Assembly (NCBI GenBank): GCA_017854585.1
Contig: JAFMHK010000001.1
Span: forward strand, 186,001-250,000
From: Paracoccaceae bacterium
GTDB lineage: Bacteria; Pseudomonadota; Alphaproteobacteria; Rhodobacterales; Rhodobacteraceae
DNA: 64,000 bases
Direction of reading: 5' to 3'
The position numbers and the translations under genes are program-made. Below the pieces are notes generated by a model, which saw only the letters and a list, made by a program, of their open reading frames with translations, did not search any database and was not told the origin of the DNA. This document shows, piece after piece, positions 1 through 63,574 of the stretch (its first letter is position 1; every line of letters begins with the position of its first letter).

Positions 1-138
1 GTTTTGGTTATCCGTCAGTTCCCGGTGAAACAGCATGGTGCCGCATTCATCGCATTTGGTCCAAAGGTTCTCGGGCATTTCGCGGCGCGAGAAGATGGAG
101 TTGATGCGCGGGCGGACGTAGTTGGTAATCCAGTTCAT
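1..138 (-). CDS. accD: Acetyl-CoA carboxylase carboxyltransferase subunit beta, N-terminus only
   Basis: Only the first 46 codons lie in the window; the gene runs off the left edge. The visible N-terminus opens [15 protein letters not shown], the usual start of AccD, and continues to a Cys-x2-Cys pair at residues 29 and 32. These would be the first half of the AccD zinc ribbon. AccD with AccA moves the carboxyl group from biotin to acetyl-CoA in the first step of fatty acid synthesis, in the cytoplasm. It lies 72 bp downstream of the CPBP protease gene on the same strand. The catalytic domain cannot be seen, but the start is very characteristic. Confidence 0.9.
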
Positions 139-51716: not shown

Positions 51717-51781
51717 GCCGGGTCCGGGGGTGGCCAATCGGTCGATGTCCCGTTAAATCCTTGGCAACAGCGTGCATACTT

Positions 51782-51807
51782 GGCGCCTCATTGCGGCGCC
51801 TTTTTTG
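51782..51807 (+). terminator. Rho-independent terminator before the SulP gene
   Basis: GGCGCC-tcattgc-GGCGCC followed by TTTTTTG, 65 bp past the MFS stop. It separates that gene from the SulP-Usp operon and rules out a SulP start further upstream than 51825. Confidence 0.8.
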
Positions 51808-51824
51808 TTTTGACGGAGTCCCCG

Positions 51825-53321
51825 ATGCCAATGTCCCCTGCTTTCCTGTCCCGGATGCGGACTGACTGGATTGGCAATATTCGCGGCGACCTGTTGTCGG
51901 GTCTGGTCGTGGCATTGGCCCTGATCCCCGAGGCGATTGCCTTTTCCATCATCGCGGGTGTCGATCCCAAGATCGGGCTTTATGCGTCGTTCTCTATCGC
52001 GGTGATCACGGCCATCGTGGGCGGACGGCCCGGTATGATTTCCGCGGCGACCGCGGCGACCGCCGTCCTGATGGTGACGTTGGTGCGTGATCACGGGCTG
52101 GAATACCTGTTGGCGGCAACGGTTCTGGCCGGGCTGTTGCAGATTGGCGCGGGCCTGCTGCGACTGGGAAGTGTGATGCGCTTTGTTTCCCGCTCGGTCA
52201 TGACAGGGTTTGTGAACGCCTTGGCGATCCTGATCTTCATGGCGCAATTGCCGGAACTGATCGGTGTGCCCAACCTGACTTATGTGATGGTCGCGGGCGG
52301 TCTGGCCATTATTTACCTGTTCCCTTACGTGACCAAGGCGATCCCGTCGCCATTGGTGTGCATCGTGGTGCTGACGGCGCTGGCACTGCTGTTCGGAATG
52401 GACCTGCGCACCGTTGGCGACATGGGAGAGCTGCCCGATACGCTGCCGATGTTCCTGATCCCCGATATTCCGCTGACATGGGAAACGCTGCAGATCATCT
52501 TGCCGTATTCAGCGGCCGTTGCGGCCGTTGGCTTGCTGGAAAGCCTGATGACCGCCCAGATCGTGGATGATTTGACCGATACGCCATCGGACAAGAACCA
52601 GGAATGCATCGGGCAGGGCATTGCCAACACCGCGACCGGCTTTATCGGCGGCATGGCGGGCTGCGCGATGATCGGACAGTCGATGATCAACGTGAAATCA
52701 GGCGGCCGCGGTCGCCTGTCGTGCTTTGCCGCAGGGGTTTTCCTGCTGATCTTGATTGTGGTTCTGGGCGATATCGTCAGCATCATTCCCATGGCCGCTT
52801 TGGTGGCGATCATGATCATGGTGTCGGTCGGGACGTTCAGTTGGTCATCCATCGTGAACCTGCGCGATCATCCGCGCAGTTCGTCCATCGTGATGTTGGC
52901 GACGGTGTTCGTCACGGTCTACACGCATAACCTCGCGCTTGGCGTTCTGACCGGCGTGCTGCTGTCGGGAATCTTTTTCGCGGGCAAGATCGCGCAGCTG
53001 TTCAGCGTTACGTCCACGCTTTCGGATGATGAAAAGACACGCACGTATCATGTTCAGGGGCAGTTGTTCTTTGCCTCGGCTGACCAGTTTGCTGCCGCGT
53101 TCGACTATAACGAGGTGCTTGACCGCGTGGTGATCAATGTAAGCCGTGCGCATATCTGGGACATATCAAGTGTTGCGGCGCTGGACATGGCCGTGCTCAA
53201 GTTCCGCCGGGACGGGGCCGAGGTGGAGATCATGGGCATGAACGAGGCGTCCGAGACCATCGTGGACAAGCTGGCCGAACACGACAAACCGGGCGCGATG
53301 GACCGGTTGATGGGTCACTGA
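51825..53321 (+). CDS. SulP-family anion permease with STAS domain
   Basis: 498 residues. Ten to twelve helices fill the first 390 residues, beginning [36 protein letters not shown], the SulP signature. A STAS domain fills about 410-498 ([22 protein letters not shown]). The family moves sulfate, bicarbonate or dicarboxylates; the bicarbonate transporter BicA belongs here, but sequence does not decide. GGAG precedes the ATG at 51825. It is followed 12 bp later by a tandem universal stress protein gene. Confidence 0.9.
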
Positions 53322-56360: not shown

Positions 56361-56661
56361 AGGATATCCTTTCGGACGCAGGCCATCGGCCGCGCCATTG
56401 GTCATTGGCCGCGACAACGCGCAACCGGGCTAGGGTGCGACCCGGACCGCGTATCGGTCTGGATCGTCAGAACCCTGCGTGATGGGGACCTGGAGAAATT
56501 GTGCGTCGCTGTCAGGGCAAAAGCCCAGGCTGCTCACGCGGCAGCGCAGCGACATGAGAGGCACATGCGCCTTGGAATGCATTCTGTCAAGGATGCTGCC
56601 CCTTTTCCTTGGCCCGCGCATCCATTATGCCCCGCGCATCCGATACCGAAGGATTTGGAAC

Positions 56662-57684
56662 ATGGGCTATAAAGTCGTCGTTGCGGGCGCCACGGGCAAT
56701 GTGGGCCGCGAAATGCTGAACATACTGGCCGAGCGCCAGTTCCCCGTTGATGAGATCGTGGCGCTTGCGTCCCGTAAATCGTTGGGGTCCGAATGCAGCT
56801 TTGGCGATAAGACCTTGAAAACCAAGGATCTGGACACTTTCGATTTTACAGGCTGGGATATCGCACTGTTCGCGATCGGGTCTGAAGCGACCAAGATCTA
56901 CGCGCCCAAGGCGGCAAAGGCCGGTTGCATCGTCATCGATAATTCCAGCCTCTACCGCTATGATCCCGATGTCCCGCTTGTCGTTCCCGAAGTGAACCCC
57001 GAGGCGGTCGAGGGGTATTACAAGAAAAATATTATCGCGAATCCGAATTGCTCGACTGCGCAGATGGTTGTGGCGCTCAAGCCATTGCACGACCGTGCAA
57101 CGATCAAGCGTGTTGTCGTGTCGACCTATCAATCCGTATCTGGTGCGGGCAAGGAAGGGATGGACGAGCTTTGGAACCAAACAAAGAGCATCTATAATCC
57201 GACCGACAGCAAGCCGCCCAGCAAGTTCACCAAGCAGATCGCATTCAACGTGATCCCGCACATCGACGTGTTTCTTGATAGTGGTGACACCAAGGAAGAA
57301 TGGAAGATGGTTGCCGAAACCAAGAAGATTCTTGATCCCAAGATCAAGGTTACGGCCACCTGCGTGCGGGTGCCGGTTTTCGTTGGCCATTCTGAATCGA
57401 TCAACATCGAGTTCGAAGAGTTTCTGGACGACGACGAGGCGCGTGACATCTTGCGTGAGGCCCCGGGCATCATGGTCATCGATAAGCGCGAAGACGGGGG
57501 CTATGTCACGCCGGTTGAATGCGTGGGCGATTATGCGACCTTCATCAGCCGCGTCCGGCAAGACAGCACCATCGAAAACGGTCTGAACCTTTGGTGCGTC
57601 AGCGACAACCTGCGCAAGGGCGCAGCCTTGAACGCCGTACAGATCGCCGAGACACTCGGCAATCGGGTGCTTAAAAAGGGCTAA
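56662..57684 (+). CDS. asd: Aspartate-semialdehyde dehydrogenase
   Basis: 340 residues, normal. It reduces aspartyl phosphate to aspartate semialdehyde for lysine, threonine and methionine. NADP loop VAGATGNVGREML at residues 7-19; the active-site cysteine is C130 (NPNCSTAQ). The start at 56662 fits aagga spacing; upstream codons are unsupported. It stands alone between the divergent helicase gene and the DUF4139 gene. dapA, which uses its product, is at 18096. Confidence 0.96.
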   Translation: MGYKVVVAGATGNVGREMLNILAERQFPVDEIVALASRKSLGSECSFGDKTLKTKDLDTFDFTGWDIALFAIGSEATKIYAPKAAKAGCIVIDNSSLYRYDPDVPLVVPEVNPEAVEGYYKKNIIANPNCSTAQMVVALKPLHDRATIKRVVVSTYQSVSGAGKEGMDELWNQTKSIYNPTDSKPPSKFTKQIAFNVIPHIDVFLDSGDTKEEWKMVAETKKILDPKIKVTATCVRVPVFVGHSESINIEFEEFLDDDEARDILREAPGIMVIDKREDGGYVTPVECVGDYATFISRVRQDSTIENGLNLWCVSDNLRKGAALNAVQIAETLGNRVLKKG

Positions 57685-57759
57685 GCAATTTCCCCGGTTT
57701 GAAGACTAGGAAATCTGGGCAATATGGACCTCTGGAATTCAAACTAGAGGTATTTCCCG

Positions 57760-59406
57760 ATGACCCGATTTCTGATGATGACGGCCTTGGTCCTGTCGCT
57801 GCCGTTGGCGGCGCAGGCACAAGGTGTGCCATTGCGGGCGCCGATAACCGCAGCGACAGTATTTACGCAAGGCGCTGAGGTTTTCCGCAATTTCGACGTT
57901 GATCTGGCCACAGGCACGCAACGTGTGTTGATTGCCCTTCCCGATAGCCGCGATGCCGCCCTGTTGCAGGTCACCGGCCCGGAGGCTCTGACGATTGGTC
58001 TGCCGGAACGCATCAGCGCAGTGGCGATCGCCGAGGGCGCACTGGACACGTCCGATCAGGCCCAAGCCCGCGCCGCAGTCGAGGTTGCGCAAGACGCTGT
58101 TCAGGCAGCGCAAGATGCACTGTCAGGTGCCGATGCGCAGATCGAGGCGATTGAATTGCAGGTTGCCTATCTGGGTGCATTGGCCCGTGGCGGCGAAGCT
58201 GGCGCAGCAATGCCCACAGACCCCGCAACGGTGTCAGCAGTGTTATCGACGCTTGGCACGGAAATGCTGCGCACCGGGACCGCCTTGCAAGAGGCCCGCG
58301 TGGCCCGGCGCGACCTCGCCGATGCCTTAACGGATGCTCAGATCGAGCTGAACACGGCATTGCAGGAATTTGGCCGGTTGCAGCCGATCGACGGCAATGT
58401 GGATGTGTTGGCCGTCGACGTGACGGCGACCGCGGCGGGAATCTCCCCCTTGGAACTGCGGTATTTCACCGCTGCGGCCGGGTGGGAACCAAGCTATGAA
58501 CTGCGGCTTGATAGTGACAGCGGCGATTTGGACCTTGTGCGTTTCATCCAGTTTTGGGCGCAGGGCGCTGCCCGATGGCAAGATGTCGATGTGACCTTTT
58601 CCACGGCCGCGCCGAACCGGGCGCGCGAACCGGCCACTGTCTTGCCGCAGCCCGCGCGCCTGCGCGATCCGGTGATGCCACTGGCGGAAAGCCGGATTTC
58701 GGGGGGCGCGATGTCTAATGAGGTGGGGTTTCCCATTGCTGCCGTCGCGCCAGTCGTGATGGCCGATACGCAGACGGTCTTTTCCGGTTTGGCGGTCAGC
58801 TACGTCTACAACACGCCTGTCACGGTTGGTCCGAATGGCACGGTCACGCTGCCGTTCGACAGTCTCACTTTGGAGATGGAGCTTGAAAACCGCGCCGTCC
58901 CGCGCCGCGATGCCACCGCCTTTCTTGTCGCGATGGGCGACAACGATAGCGGCGAGCCGATCTTGCCCGGTCAGGGCTATTTTTTCCGCGATGGGGCGCT
59001 GATCGGCGAAGGCTATCTGCCGTTGATCGTTGCGGGCGAAGAGATCGAGATTGGTTTTGGCCCCCTCGATCATCTGCAGCTTGTCTGGGAAAACCGCGCC
59101 TTGAACGAAGGTGACCGGGGGCTGATCGTGACCAGCAATACGCAAGTGAACGAGATTGCATTTGGTGTCGAAAACACAAGCGGAGAGGCCGAGGAGGTGC
59201 GGATCATCTACGCCACGCCTTTTGCCGAGCAAGAGGATCTTGAACTTGATCTGACCTTCCGGCCGTTGCCGACGGCACGCGATGTCGACAACCTGCGCGG
59301 CGTACATGAATGGGTGATCGAGGTCGCCCCAGGTGCAACTGAAATGGTCGAGATGACGGCAGCGTTCAGCTGGCCTGAGGGACCGGTTCTGGAATGGTGG
59401 CCATAA
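57760..59406 (+). CDS. DUF4139 domain protein (mucoidy-inhibitor A-like), secreted
   Basis: 548 residues with a signal peptide (MTRFLMMTALVLSLPLAAQA). The N-terminal part (about 22-75) has the beta-rich APITAATVFTQGAEVFR start of the DUF4140 region. A helical stalk (about 85-210, AVEVAQDAVQAAQDALSGADAQIEAIELQ) may form a coiled coil. The DUF4139 region follows (WEPSYELRLD, then FFRDGALIGEGYLP). It is probably periplasmic; function is unknown. It lies 75 bp after asd. Confidence 0.85.
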   Translation: MTRFLMMTALVLSLPLAAQAQGVPLRAPITAATVFTQGAEVFRNFDVDLATGTQRVLIALPDSRDAALLQVTGPEALTIGLPERISAVAIAEGALDTSDQAQARAAVEVAQDAVQAAQDALSGADAQIEAIELQVAYLGALARGGEAGAAMPTDPATVSAVLSTLGTEMLRTGTALQEARVARRDLADALTDAQIELNTALQEFGRLQPIDGNVDVLAVDVTATAAGISPLELRYFTAAAGWEPSYELRLDSDSGDLDLVRFIQFWAQGAARWQDVDVTFSTAAPNRAREPATVLPQPARLRDPVMPLAESRISGGAMSNEVGFPIAAVAPVVMADTQTVFSGLAVSYVYNTPVTVGPNGTVTLPFDSLTLEMELENRAVPRRDATAFLVAMGDNDSGEPILPGQGYFFRDGALIGEGYLPLIVAGEEIEIGFGPLDHLQLVWENRALNEGDRGLIVTSNTQVNEIAFGVENTSGEAEEVRIIYATPFAEQEDLELDLTFRPLPTARDVDNLRGVHEWVIEVAPGATEMVEMTAAFSWPEGPVLEWWP

Positions 59407-59415
59407 GCGGCCATT

Positions 59416-59448
59416 GATCGGGGCCTTCAGATCGTGTTGGCCCCGGTC
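59416..59448 (+). terminator. Weak hairpin after the DUF4139 gene
   Basis: GATCGGGGCC...GGCCCCGGTC, a 10-bp stem with one wobble pair and a 13-base loop, 9 bp past the stop. No T-run, so it is only a candidate. Confidence 0.35.
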
Positions 59449-59581
59449 GATACTCATGATCCGTCATTCACCGCCGGCCGTATCCTGCGGGCGGGGGCCA
59501 TGGTGCCCGTAATGCTGTCTCCCGCTGGCAATTTTCGACGAGACCAACGGCAGACCGCAAAGCACGGTCTGGGGTGAAACG

Positions 59582-59893
59582 TCAGAACCGTTCGGCGCGC
59601 AGGACTTCGCAATCCACCACGCTGACCACGCCGATATGCCGTTCCACGACAGAAAATGCGGCGTCCAGCAGATTGTCCAGTTTGTCGGCCCGGACAATGC
59701 AGACCACGCTGACCATGCCGCCTGCACGGCTGACCTGTCCCTCGCGGCTCCATTGGCCCGAACGGCCTGACCCACCCAGAACGGGCAACACGGTAAACCC
59801 GGTTACGCCAGCAGTGACCAAGGCGGTGGTCAGGCGGCGTTCCATGACCGCCTCGATCGTGATTTCCACGCGTTTCGCTTTGTGGGTCTGCAT
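59582..59893 (-). CDS. sbtB: PII-like protein, SbtB type
   Basis: 103 residues. It has the PII fold pattern (KRVEITIEAVMERRLTTALVTAGVTGFTVLPVLGG, then MVSVVCIVRADKLDNLLDAAFSVVERHIGVVSVVDCEVLR). The T-loop region (SGRSGQWSREGQVSRAG) lacks the classical GlnB uridylylation tyrosine, as expected for SbtB, and there is no C-terminal cysteine loop. SbtB binds cyclic or adenine nucleotides and controls the bicarbonate transporter SbtA. It lies 6 bp after sbtA, a typical pairing. The 133-bp stretch after its end holds no gene. Confidence 0.85.
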   Translation of the reverse strand: MQTHKAKRVEITIEAVMERRLTTALVTAGVTGFTVLPVLGGSGRSGQWSREGQVSRAGGMVSVVCIVRADKLDNLLDAAFSVVERHIGVVSVVDCEVLRAERF

Positions 59894-59899
59894 GGGGTG

Positions 59900-60883
59900 T
59901 CAGGCTCCGGTCAGGGCTTGGGCGATCGTCAGGTAAATCGGGATGCCCAGGGTCAGGTTGAATGGAAAGGTTACGCCAAGCGACAGCGTCAGGTAGATGG
60001 ATGGGTTCGCCTCGGGCAGGGCCACGCGCATGGCGGCCGGCACGGCGATGTAGCTGGCTGAGGCCGACAGCGTCATGAACAACATCACGCCACCTGGCGA
60101 CAGGCCCAGCAACAATCCCGCGCCAAGACCGAACATGCTGCCGATCAAGGGCATCACCATGCCGAACAGGAAAAGCCCCGGGCGCAGGACATCGCGCGCC
60201 TCGCGGAGACCACGGCCCGCAACCAGCCCCATATCCAGCAAGAACAGGCACAGCACGCCCTGAAACGGGCTCACGATGAAGGGTGCGATCTTCGCCAACC
60301 CTTCGGCCCCGGTGATGACACCGATCAGGAACGAGCCGACCAAAAGCACGATTGATCCGTTTAGCAGGATTTCCTGCAACAGCCCGGCCTCCATCTTGCC
60401 GCTGCCGGAACTGTCATATCGCGCGATCAGCCATAGGGCCGACAGGATGGCCGGTGCCTCCATCACGGCGGCGACGGCGACCATATAGCCTTCGGAGTTC
60501 AGGCCCGCACTGGTCGCAACCGATGTGGCCGCCACGAAGGTCACGATAGAGATGGAGCCATAGTGCGCCGCAACTGCCGCCGCATCCGTAACGCTAAGCC
60601 CGGTCATCACACGCAGCAGTGTGAAGGCGACAAAGGGCAAGACGAAGGAAAGGATCAAACCGGCCAGCAGTGACAACAGCAAGGTCGCGTCGATGCCATG
60701 CGCCGCCACACTGGCCCCGCCTTTGAAGCCGATGGCGAACAACAGATAGAGCGACATCCCCTTGGCCACCGATTCCGGCACCGTCAGGTCAGACCGTGCA
60801 AAGGCAGCCAGCAGTCCAAGGGCGAAGAACAGGATGATCGGCGATAACAGGTTATCGACCGCCAGTGCGAATATGCCGTCCAT
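59900..60883 (-). CDS. sbtA: Sodium-dependent bicarbonate transporter, SbtA family
   Basis: 327 residues with about ten helices in two inverted repeats. Signature stretches: LLSPIILFFALGLLAAFARSDL, AVAAHYGSISIVTFVAATS (a substrate-binding serine-rich motif), and MTLSASASYIAVPAAMRVALPEANPSIYL. It matches SbtA, which in cyanobacteria takes up bicarbonate with sodium. It is preceded by a beta carbonic anhydrase gene and followed by sbtB on the same strand. Confidence 0.9.
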   Translation of the reverse strand: MDGIFALAVDNLLSPIILFFALGLLAAFARSDLTVPESVAKGMSLYLLFAIGFKGGASVAAHGIDATLLLSLLAGLILSFVLPFVAFTLLRVMTGLSVTDAAAVAAHYGSISIVTFVAATSVATSAGLNSEGYMVAVAAVMEAPAILSALWLIARYDSSGSGKMEAGLLQEILLNGSIVLLVGSFLIGVITGAEGLAKIAPFIVSPFQGVLCLFLLDMGLVAGRGLREARDVLRPGLFLFGMVMPLIGSMFGLGAGLLLGLSPGGVMLFMTLSASASYIAVPAAMRVALPEANPSIYLTLSLGVTFPFNLTLGIPIYLTIAQALTGA

Positions 60884-60941
60884 TACCCTGCCCCCGCGCT
60901 CGTTTCAATGTGCATAGTCCGAGCAGAAGCTTTGGTAAAGT

Positions 60942-61607
60942 TCAGGGGCGCACGAAATGGCGTATCGTCCCGTCGAATGTCTCCAGATCCATCTCGGCGA
61001 TATCCGTCCAGAGGCCGTGCAGCGTTATGGTATTGGAATCGACCGCCTCGGCAACGAACGGATAGCTCAGCAGGTTCTCCAATGAGACCTGCACCCCCTC
61101 TTTCTCAAGGGCGGTCTGGCGAACGGCGAGGTCCGCAATATCCGCGACGCGATCATGCCCGACGCGCAGGGTGTCGAGCCACCGCCCGATGAAGCTGCTT
61201 TGCTCCTCCAATTCCGGGGCGTTACCGGTACACATTTCGATGCATCCGCGCACGCCGCCGCAGTTGGAATGCCCCATGACGATAATGTGCTGTACGTTGA
61301 GGTTGCGGATGGCAAATTCGACCGCTGCGGCCGTCCCGTGGTGTTGCCCGTCCGGCGTGTAGGGTGGAACCAGATTGGCGATGTTGCGGTGCACGAACAG
61401 TTCGCCCATGCGCTGCCCAAAGACCGAATTCACCGCCACCCGGCTATCGCAGCAGGCGATGATCATTGCTTTGGGGTGCTGTCCATCGGTTGCCAGATGG
61501 CGAAACCAGTTACGGTTTTCAGGAAACCGGGTTTCCTTCCAATCCTTGTAGCGGGTCAACAGATAGTCGGGCAGAGATTTGACGCGGTGCATTTCAGAGC
61601 CATCCAT
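60942..61607 (-). CDS. Beta-class carbonic anhydrase
   Basis: 221 residues. Zinc and catalytic residues: C52, D54 and R56 (ACCDSR), H113 and C116 (GHSNCGG). It interconverts carbon dioxide and bicarbonate. The start at 61607 (MDGSEMHRVKSLPDYL) was chosen since AGGTCAGG lies before it; 61634 and 61592 are alternatives. It precedes sbtA by 58 bp and probably shares a promoter with it, giving a carbonic anhydrase-sbtA-sbtB cluster. The enzyme is cytoplasmic, having no signal peptide. Confidence 0.94.
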   Translation of the reverse strand: MDGSEMHRVKSLPDYLLTRYKDWKETRFPENRNWFRHLATDGQHPKAMIIACCDSRVAVNSVFGQRMGELFVHRNIANLVPPYTPDGQHHGTAAAVEFAIRNLNVQHIIVMGHSNCGGVRGCIEMCTGNAPELEEQSSFIGRWLDTLRVGHDRVADIADLAVRQTALEKEGVQVSLENLLSYPFVAEAVDSNTITLHGLWTDIAEMDLETFDGTIRHFVRP

Positions 61608-61738
61608 GAGGTGCCTGACCTGACTACCCTGCATTGCGTTCAATTTGGAGGCGTTTTTTGACGCGGGCTAAATCGTTTTTTCAGCACGCTTCGCACAGGT
61701 TGATCCCAGCCGTGGGGGCGGAATGTGGAGTGTGCAAT

Positions 61739-62119
61739 ATGCAATTCATTACCGAATTGCGGGTGGAGGAACCTGCGCGGTTCAACCCGGACCGGTTGGA
61801 AGAACTCTGCCGCACGGTGGGAGAAGTGCGTGCAGAGGCCGAGGTGGCTTTGGCACTGGACCGGATCGGCCGTTGCCTGTTGCAACTGGCGCGGGTCGAT
61901 CCAGTCGCGACATCGGCTGAGGTCACGGTTGTGCTGGCGCAAATCATCAAAGCGTCTGATCTGATTGGCATGGCAACCTTGGCACGTGTGGCGCGCGATG
62001 TGACGTCTTGCATGGAGGGGCAAGACCCTGTGGCCTTGGCCGCGACGCTGGCACGTCTGAAACGGGTCGGGGACAGGTCCATCCACGCGGTATGGGATCT
62101 GGAGGATTTGTCGGGCTGA
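61739..62119 (+). CDS. Small helical protein of unknown function
   Basis: A 126-residue protein (MQFITELRVEEPARFNPDRLEEL at its start), almost entirely helical by sequence and rich in Ala, Val, Leu and Arg. It has two cysteine-containing helices but no known motif. I do not recognise it. The start at 61739 is used; an earlier frame would add a basic stretch. It lies 69 bp before pepA on the same strand, and could be cotranscribed with it. A phosphotransfer (HPt-like) fold would be possible from length, but the HxxKG motif is absent. Confidence 0.55.
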   Translation: MQFITELRVEEPARFNPDRLEELCRTVGEVRAEAEVALALDRIGRCLLQLARVDPVATSAEVTVVLAQIIKASDLIGMATLARVARDVTSCMEGQDPVALAATLARLKRVGDRSIHAVWDLEDLSG

Positions 62120-62188
62120 TTGCGCGGGGGTCTTGCGGCCTCCCACCCGCAGGGTAGTGTGGCGCGACAGATTTGAAAGGTCGCCCCG

Positions 62189-63574
62189 ATGCCGCTGAAA
62201 TTCGTTGCCCCTGATCCTGAGGCAATACCCGTTACATTGTGCGCGCCACTTGATCTGGACATGGTGTTGGCGATGCTGCGTGATGCAAGCCAGTCGTGGG
62301 TGCGACACCACGGCTTTACCGGTGGGCTTGGGCAGGTCTGCACCCTTCCGGGGGAAGACGGCACCCCCGAACGTGTCTTGATCGGTCGTGGCACGGTGGC
62401 AGATCGGTTGCGGCGCCGCTTTGCTGTGGGTGCGGCGATCGCCGCTTTGCCGACCGCAACCTACATGATCGAGGCAATGCCAGACGGCGCCGAGGCCGAT
62501 GAGATCGCGCTTGGGTATTTGCTGGCGTGTTACCGGTTCGATCGTTACCGCGCCCAAACGGTTGCGACGGCGCGGTTGGTTGCCCCCGTCGGCGTCGATG
62601 CAGGCAAGCTTGAGGCGATTGCCGCCGGTGAAATGTTGACCCGCAATCTGATCAACACGCCTGCCGAAGACATGGGGCCGGACGCGTTGGAGCAAGCGGT
62701 TCACGGTCAGGCGGCGGCGTTTGGTGCAACAGTCAACGTCATCACGGGCGACGATCTGCTGACCCGGAATTTTCCTTTGATTCACACGGTCGGTCGCGCA
62801 GCCGCCCGCGCCCCGCGCCTGATCGAGATGACATGGGGCAACACCGGCCCGACCCTGACCCTTGTGGGCAAGGGCGTTTGTTTCGATACCGGCGGGCTGA
62901 ACCTCAAACCCAGTGCATCCATGGGGCTGATGAAAAAGGATATGGGTGGCGCGGCGACAGTCTTGGGCTTGGCGCACATGATCATGGCGCGGGGCATGGC
63001 GGTGCGGTTGCGGGTGCTGATCCCCGCAGTGGAAAATGCGGTGTCAGGAAATGCGTTTCGCCCCGGCGATATCTTGACCGCGCGCAACGGTTTGACGGTC
63101 GAGATCAACAACACCGATGCGGAAGGACGCCTTGTACTGGCCGATGCGCTGGCGTTGGCAAACGAAACACCACCCGATCTGTTGATTTGCATGGCAACCC
63201 TTACGGGCGCGGCGCGCGTTGCCGTCGGCCCGGATCTTGCGCCCTTCTTCACCGATGATGACGTGCTTGCCGCCGCGGTGTCCGCTTATGCGGCGAAAGT
63301 GGCCGACCCGGTCTGGCGCCTGCCGTTTCATGCGCCCTACGAGGCGATGATCGAACCTGGGATCGCCGATCTGGACAATGCGCCCAAAGGCGGTATGGCG
63401 GGATCAATCACTGCCGCGCTGTTCCTGCGCCGGTTCGTGCCAGACGTGGCACGGTTTGCTCATTTCGACATCTACGGCTGGCAGCCGTCTGATGCGCCCG
63501 CCCGACCCAAGGGCGGTGTTGGCATGGCCGCCCGCGCCCTGTTTGCCGCCCTGCCCGAGGTGTTGGCCCAATGA
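62189..63574 (+). CDS. Leucyl aminopeptidase, M17 family
   Basis: 461 residues. The two-metal M17 site is clear: K228 and D233 in GKGVCFDTGG, D251-type aspartate in MKKDMGGAATV, and D310 and E312 with catalytic R314 in NTDAEGRLVLADAL. It removes N-terminal residues from peptides in the cytoplasm. It is shorter than E. coli PepA and resembles the PepB/alphaproteobacterial branch. Its stop overlaps the next start as ATGA. Confidence 0.93.
   Translation: MPLKFVAPDPEAIPVTLCAPLDLDMVLAMLRDASQSWVRHHGFTGGLGQVCTLPGEDGTPERVLIGRGTVADRLRRRFAVGAAIAALPTATYMIEAMPDGAEADEIALGYLLACYRFDRYRAQTVATARLVAPVGVDAGKLEAIAAGEMLTRNLINTPAEDMGPDALEQAVHGQAAAFGATVNVITGDDLLTRNFPLIHTVGRAAARAPRLIEMTWGNTGPTLTLVGKGVCFDTGGLNLKPSASMGLMKKDMGGAATVLGLAHMIMARGMAVRLRVLIPAVENAVSGNAFRPGDILTARNGLTVEINNTDAEGRLVLADALALANETPPDLLICMATLTGAARVAVGPDLAPFFTDDDVLAAAVSAYAAKVADPVWRLPFHAPYEAMIEPGIADLDNAPKGGMAGSITAALFLRRFVPDVARFAHFDIYGWQPSDAPARPKGGVGMAARALFAALPEVLAQ

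Follow-up and report, generated by a model that had tools for sequence, protein, structure and literature searches.

Why does a bacterium in whose genome no Rubisco is found carry, side by side, genes for a carbonic anhydrase (CA), a transporter of the SbtA family and a PII-like protein? The question is raised by a cluster in a 64,000-nucleotide stretch of DNA from a Paracoccaceae bacterium (GCA_017854585.1, contig JAFMHK010000001.1, positions 186,001 to 250,000; hereafter the window), which lies within contig C21 of a 3.37 Mb genome of 69 contigs and 94.3% completeness. The organisms with the nearest named genes and gene order at the locus point to the Rhodobacteraceae as its family. The cluster consists of three intact, co-directional genes on the minus strand, in the order beta-class CA, SbtA-family transporter, PII-like gene, with gaps of 58 bp between the first two and 6 bp between the last two. 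The open reading frame calls agree with the strand and spacing given in the initial annotation, whose interval (59582-60942) covered the transporter and the PII gene but omitted the CA, which extends to 61643. Because the same genes recur together across many genomes, the cluster is real and not a chance association. It probably serves the regulated, sodium-driven import of bicarbonate for housekeeping carboxylases in a non-autotrophic metabolism.

The transporter belongs to the SbtA family and has the SbtA fold, but it is not a canonical SbtA. It is the sole Sbt_1 match in the genome, with a profile score of 384.7 bits against a cut-off of 27 bits, and its AlphaFold model (mean pLDDT 88) matches SbtA (8zor) with Z 44.2 and an rmsd of 1.9 over 322 residues; the top five Foldseek matches are all SbtA (Z 37-44), and the next other protein follows at Z 23. 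Against Slr1512 it scores 79 bits, whereas the long paralogue L023 of a related genome scores 355. In Synechocystis SbtA, mutation has tested four bicarbonate ligands, Ser114, Tyr140, Ser324, and Ser327 (PMC8352866); by alignment, the first and third are kept as S112 and S277, and the second and fourth are replaced by A138 and A280. It is this low score against Slr1512, together with the change of two ligands in four, that sets the transporter apart, so that its initial labeling as SbtA-type holds for family and fold and not for the canonical type. In an alignment of 100 transporter rows, which includes the long paralogues L052 and L053, each of the two conserved serines is present in 99, A280 in 97, and A138 in 90; L052 and L053 themselves have Tyr and Ser, as in canonical SbtA, where the other rows mostly have alanine. 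Long and short kinds co-occur in three genomes (G001, G015, G030).

Such a replacement of Tyr140 and Ser327 also fits a transporter for a different small carboxylate, such as formate or an anion akin to it, beside which the CA would be an incidental neighbor. The formate phenotype of Shewanella SO_3758 (PMC12093963) and the 45 of 94 transporter-tree rows without a CA in the stretch point the same way. Against this stand the pairing with CAs of two lineages in two gene orders, a PII partner closest to CPII, which was solved with bicarbonate, and docking (PMC12093963) that favors bicarbonate over formate in wild-type SO_3758; a different substrate is thus rather unlikely.

The third gene, taken for an SbtB in the initial annotation, encodes a PII-like protein of the CPII type. 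Among solved PII-like proteins its best match by sequence, profile, and fold is CPII, the Thiomonas protein that PDB titles describe with ADP, AMP, and bicarbonate, and on these scores the SbtB assignment was rejected; a better score to another PII-like family is an outcome that the initial annotation itself had listed as refuting. The profile scores are 60.2 bits for CPII, 37.6 to 29.2 for SbtBs, and at most 19.8 for classical PII; the AlphaFold model (pLDDT 85.7) matches CPII best (Z 13.7, rmsd 2.4 over 103 residues), with the Z values of the PII folds lying close together (TTHA0516 12.7, SbtB 11.8). The genome has two further PII-family matches, and both (99 and 113 bits) outscore the cluster copy (50 bits). 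G41, G43, and G46 are present in 89 of 89 aligned rows and W48 in 86. The protein ends in AERF, without a C-terminal cysteine pair, and two cysteines within the last 12 residues, as in the CGPxGC redox loop, occur in none of the 89 aligned homologues. The missing cysteine loop had been seen correctly at the outset but is not diagnostic, since roughly half of 460 cyanobacterial SbtBs have it (PMC10991534). The PII-like protein likely regulates the transporter.

Judged by Pro_CA family membership and motifs, the first gene is predicted to encode a CA of the beta class, as originally proposed. It is the only PF00484 match in the genome; its best match in the PDB is the pea beta-CA (1ekj, 5.9e-32), and the first Cys, the Asp, and the Arg of CxDSR, as well as the His and Cys of HxxC, are kept in 51 of 51 aligned CA rows. 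Besides the TTG start of Table 1, translation might begin at one of the ATG codons at 61634, 61607, and 61592.

The transporter and the PII gene behave as a cassette. Relatives were taken as the best 80 of at least 536 transporter relatives in named genomes, a set that leans towards kin of the window protein because it was chosen as nearest to it. Of the 80, 77 have the PII gene next to the transporter; the exceptions are L171, whose contig ends there, L181, and L183. A CA lies inside the fetched stretch in 43, upstream of the transporter in 32 and downstream of the PII gene in 11; L135 is scored as downstream although its CA sits 3.65 kb away. The search for synteny found the order CA-Sbt-PII to recur in Rhodobacteraceae; the order Sbt-PII-CA is found in Roseibium, Labrenzia, Hongsoonwoonella, Thalassospira, some Hyphomicrobiales and, more loosely, Kiloniella. 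The transporter tree comprises 94 rows, L035 (a copy of L113), L043, L050, L110, L052, and L053 being excluded; the 45 rows without a CA in the stretch divide into 43 with the cassette elsewhere and 2 at the CA locus minus its CA. Many forks of this tree are unsupported and its outer branches are long, so no insertions are counted beyond the starred branches, which require at least five changes of the upstream-CA state.

At loci away from the CA, no convincing recurring second partner was found among the 19 neighbors scanned, a part of all neighbors; repeats were LysR by three PII-less copies, MutL by two related copies, and two EamA in unlike places. The LysR regulator gene lies close upstream of the transporter in L181, L183, and L042, the three scanned of nine PII-less copies, where transcriptional control may replace PII control. 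Three gammaproteobacterial halophiles (L105, L106, and L110; Ectothiorhodospiraceae, Spiribacter) carry the cassette with a transporter 77-82% identical to that of the window; L105 and L106 nest inside Rhodobacteraceae, which points to transfer or, both being metagenome-assembled genomes (MAGs), to mis-binning. L107, titled Maritalea mobilis (Devosiaceae), has a typical Rhodobacteraceae locus and a window-like transporter; its name may be wrong.

At this locus the Sbt-PII pair appears to be a visitor beside a resident CA, because the CA and its flanking markers recur where Sbt and PII genes are missing. Of 20 cassette-less CA loci fetched from genomes of the family, 18 show the aminopeptidase, 18 show asd, and 16 show both, and none of the 20 holds an Sbt or PII gene; three of these genomes (G006, G015, G043) have a short transporter at another place. 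The window and 37 other tree rows carry the cassette on the downstream side of the CA, across gaps that are mostly below 60 bp and at the largest 2.1 kb; 35 of the 37 also show the aminopeptidase or asd in the fetched stretch. The CA tree agrees: cassette-bearing and cassette-less loci have intermixed CAs, which argues that the CA belongs to the locus and not to the cassette. The label 'upstream' needs 17 changes on this tree, against a shuffled mean of 23.0 (6 of 500 shuffles as low), and is thus somewhat clustered, and the label 'no-cassette' needs 18, against 17.5. A branch with an SH-aLRT of 96 separates the downstream CAs from the upstream and the cassette-less CAs, so that the transporter is paired with two CA lineages.

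The same intermixing is what would be seen if CA and cassette were mere neighbors, the cassette having landed downstream of a housekeeping gene without any functional coupling. A second arrangement with another CA lineage, however, and the changes of upstream state forced by the starred branches of the transporter tree speak against this, and it is very unlikely.

The cassette also occurs where the CA is missing. In two MAGs (L140, L145) it stands at its usual locus without the CA and with no beta-CA elsewhere in the available sequence; L145 has DabA. A beta-CA search covered 42 genomes: 37 named ones whose fetched stretch holds the cassette but no CA, and 5 controls with a CA there, all 5 positive; 16 of the 37 have no beta-CA anywhere. 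These 16 are mostly MAGs of unstated completeness, and the CA searches covered the beta and alpha classes; alpha-CA was found in none of them, with a positive result in only 1 of 14 control genomes, and DabA was not found in 13. The idea that the transporter simply replaces the CA was dropped, since 7 of 49 cassette-less genomes of the family also lack a beta-CA, against 0 of 12 with the cassette; among those 7, alpha-CA is present in none and DabA in 2. A clade close to the window transporter (L120, L122, L128, L148, L149) lies away from the CA locus, and none of its five genomes has a beta-CA; three of the five bear the names of soda-lake types (Paracoccus bogoriensis, Natronohydrobacter, and Roseinatronobacter).

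The metabolic setting is one in which bicarbonate would be used outside autotrophy. A search of the whole genome with PF00016 returned no Rubisco match (5 of 14 control genomes were positive), which bears out the expectation of the initial annotation, and no match was found for PEP carboxylase; the incompleteness of the genome leaves a small doubt on both absences. A frame of 1164 aa matches PYC_OADA, as expected of a pyruvate carboxylase, which keeps biotin carboxylases plausible as the bicarbonate sink, as had been suggested. The genome further holds a full-length DabA homologue (G000:C18:9852-12125, 4e-250), and thus a second candidate inorganic-carbon system without a Rubisco match. In the window itself, a SulP transporter was ruled out as BicA, since it scores 158.7 bits where the model's cut-off is 880; its nearest solved structure is 5da0, 'sulphate transporter'.

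Nor does the cassette track Rubisco, since PF00016 matches are not enriched in genomes that carry it. The transporter search, run on 101 sampled relatives, had matches in 21, of which 19 hold the short subfamily; these 19 cassette-type genomes exclude G011 and G087, which have the long divergent kind alone, and include the fragmentary G021 and G094. Strong PF00016 matches occur in 1 of the 19 and in 12 of the 82 others (Fisher p 0.45). If matches of any strength are counted, the figures are 2 of 19 against 24 of 82 (p 0.14) and, for the family on its own, 1 of 12 genomes with the cassette against 20 of 49 without it (p 0.044), the opposite direction. A Rubisco-linked carbon-concentrating mechanism was therefore rejected, for this genome and as a general trend. 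The surroundings do not resemble a carboxysome-associated operon either: PF00016 is not matched, and the neighbors are the aminopeptidase, the CA, a MuiA-family gene, and asd. The placement of the cluster in a heterotroph stands in so far as no Rubisco was found; it is not new as such, SbtA-like proteins having been noted in 'numerous heterotrophic bacteria' (PMC10117731).

From gene content, order, and conservation, the predicted fold, and the lack of a Rubisco match, we infer the substrate and direction of the short-subfamily transporter, as well as sensing and plugging by its partner. Through an elevator mechanism, the SbtA-family protein, with its predicted fold, would bring in bicarbonate together with sodium; the CPII-type PII trimer would sense the adenylate and/or bicarbonate state and, when import is unneeded, would plug the cytoplasmic side of the transporter with its T-loop, as in SbtA-SbtB (PMC8352866). 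The resident beta-CA would equilibrate CO2 and bicarbonate, making bicarbonate from respiratory CO2 while the pump is plugged, and the sink would be pyruvate carboxylase with other biotin-dependent or bicarbonate-using enzymes. A CA-less E. coli is rescued by cyanobacterial SbtAs, whose uptake SbtB blocks in 4 of 5 pairs (PMC4275256), and also by two Thiomicrospira pelophila Sbt proteins, which may belong to the short or the long subfamily (PMC12628692); such transporters can therefore support heterotrophic growth.

The module might instead run mainly outward, or serve pH and sodium balance, the CA hydrating respiratory CO2 and the transporter exporting bicarbonate (with sodium), so as to vent CO2 or buffer the cell in marine, saline, or alkaline settings. 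The CA-first gene order in Rhodobacteraceae and the failure to find Rubisco in the genome would suit this, as would some relatives, whose names suggest saline or soda habitats. Sodium symporters, however, normally move inward with the sodium gradient, and the cassette is also found without any CA in the stretch. The authors of the SO_3758 study favor efflux (PMC12093963), but the Sbt proteins assayed in two other studies raise uptake or intracellular carbon (PMC4275256, PMC12628692); a mainly outward module is unlikely.

Several observations weigh against bicarbonate import coupled to the CA. Two of the four bicarbonate ligands are alanine in the window transporter, and we know of no short-subfamily member for which a bicarbonate-uptake assay exists. 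Nearly half of the tree rows, the 45 counted above, have no CA in the stretch; the clade of downstream CAs includes the long branches L135 and L151 and may be the ordinary CA of the bacterial orders with the downstream arrangement, from which the tree included no CA of cassette-less genomes. Loss of the beta-CA is about equally frequent with the cassette (16 of 80 named genomes) and without it (7 of 49 in the family), and no cassette genome of the family sample (0 of 12) lacks one. A promoter-pattern scan of the cluster region found no promoter. The nearest experimental case, SO_3758, came to light through formate tolerance, in a study that inclines to efflux (PMC12093963); a weak SbtA-like cyanobacterial paralogue (24% identity) appears unable to compensate for missing SbtA (PMC11890772); and staphylococcal work holds that an importer with a cytosolic CA 'does not really make sense' and finds no growth benefit (PMC8552792). 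A transporter next to a cytosolic CA should indeed leak, an objection that gating by the PII-like protein would answer.

A more far-reaching form of regulated import, tentative as a whole, is that the cluster forms a distinct, mobile, Rubisco-independent bicarbonate valve of proteobacteria. A short SbtA whose anion site has been rebuilt would be clustered with a resident CA and controlled by a CPII-type protein that reads bicarbonate and adenylates; the cell would thereby change over between its CA and import as the source of bicarbonate and avoid a futile leak, and in some lineages the transporter would have superseded the CA. The lineages in question, named just as tentatively, would be the Shimia and Aestuariivita MAGs, with the cassette at the same locus, and Natronohydrobacter and similar bacteria.

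Compared with known systems, the cluster is closest in outline to Synechocystis SbtA-SbtB (Slr1512/Slr1513), with which it shares the Pfam family and fold of the transporter and an adjacent PII-like gene; it differs from cyanobacterial SbtA-SbtB in that the transporter is about 23-26% identical, with the ligand changes described, the PII protein is nearer CPII, a CA is co-encoded, and Rubisco was not found. CPII of Thiomonas intermedia (PDB 5d4l, 5d4n-5d4p, 5drk, 5ds7), the best match of the PII-like protein, shares with it a G-x-G-x-x-G-x-aromatic stretch of the T-loop in the profile alignment, at an identity of about 27%. By the title of Wheatley et al. 2016, CPII is said to be carboxysome-associated, whereas no Rubisco was found in the window genome. 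The long SbtA paralogues are homologues in the same Pfam family, unlike the window transporter in their closeness to Slr1512 (L023) and in their kept Tyr and Ser ligands (L052, L053). SO_3758 of Shewanella oneidensis has the same Ser-Ala-Ser-Tyr-Ile substrate-crossover stretch, whose residues are named in PMC12093963; it differs in its formate-tolerance phenotype, and the available parts of that paper mention neither a CA nor a PII partner. MpsAB/DAB of heterotrophs likewise supply bicarbonate or CO2 for housekeeping carboxylation outside autotrophy (PMC8552792, PMC6689103) but are unrelated proteins, treated as alternatives to CA and not as partners (PMC8552792). A study of SAR11 genomes records an SBT permease alongside CA (PMC10030771). 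SbtA-like proteins in heterotrophs are thus known already; what sets the present case apart is the coupling to a CA and the CPII-type partner. Searches of the open-access literature, which are weak evidence here since subscription journals mostly fall outside it, found no account of a Rhodobacteraceae CA-Sbt-PII cluster or of its CPII-type partner.

The coordinates of the cluster and its surroundings are collected in Table 1. The 132-aa frame next to the CA recurs near the CA in 14 of the 20 cassette-less CA loci, and the MuiA-family gene is present in 6 of them. The true start of asd is probably later than annotated, because the NCBIfam match covers only part of the frame. No RNA family was found within 57500-63000, and a terminator-pattern scan gave 4 terminator-like matches against 2.5 expected, none at the end of the cluster. 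The gene immediately after the SulP/STAS transporter has weak universal-stress-protein matches. At the left edge of the window, 59 kb from the cluster, where the initial annotation placed accD, a 46-aa frame (1-138, minus strand) running off the end carries a CDECG motif, which may be that of AccD.

Table 1. Position of the cluster genes and of neighboring features in the window.
Feature	Coordinates	Strand	Remarks
Beta-class CA, first cluster gene	60942..61643	-	233 aa from TTG; Pfam Pro_CA 9e-44
SbtA-family (Sbt_1) transporter, divergent short subfamily	59900..60883	-	327 aa, ATG; Pfam Sbt_1 4.3e-115
PII-like protein, CPII type	59582..59893	-	103 aa, ATG; Pfam P-II 2e-13
Conserved 132-aa ORF, divergent neighbor of CA (context only)	61721..62119	+	Without Pfam/NCBIfam match
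Leucyl aminopeptidase family, CA-locus marker	62189..63574	+	NCBIfam 5.7e-93, under the model's curated cut-off
Aspartate-semialdehyde dehydrogenase (asd), marker on other flank	56479..57684	+	NCBIfam 5e-156, residues 62-396
MuiA-family protein (DUF4139/DUF4140), between asd and cluster	57760-59406	+	In 6 of 20 cassette-less CA loci
SulP/STAS transporter, 6 kb from cluster	51780-53321	+	Closest solved structure, sulphate transporter 5da0

In many alphaproteobacteria a putative importer and a CA, a combination argued to be incompatible in staphylococci (PMC8552792), are encoded together, along with a PII-like switch. Should bicarbonate import by the module be confirmed, it would offer a testable answer to how such cells prevent leak; PII-type control of inorganic carbon would then reach beyond autotrophs, and CPII-type proteins would gain a likely partner.

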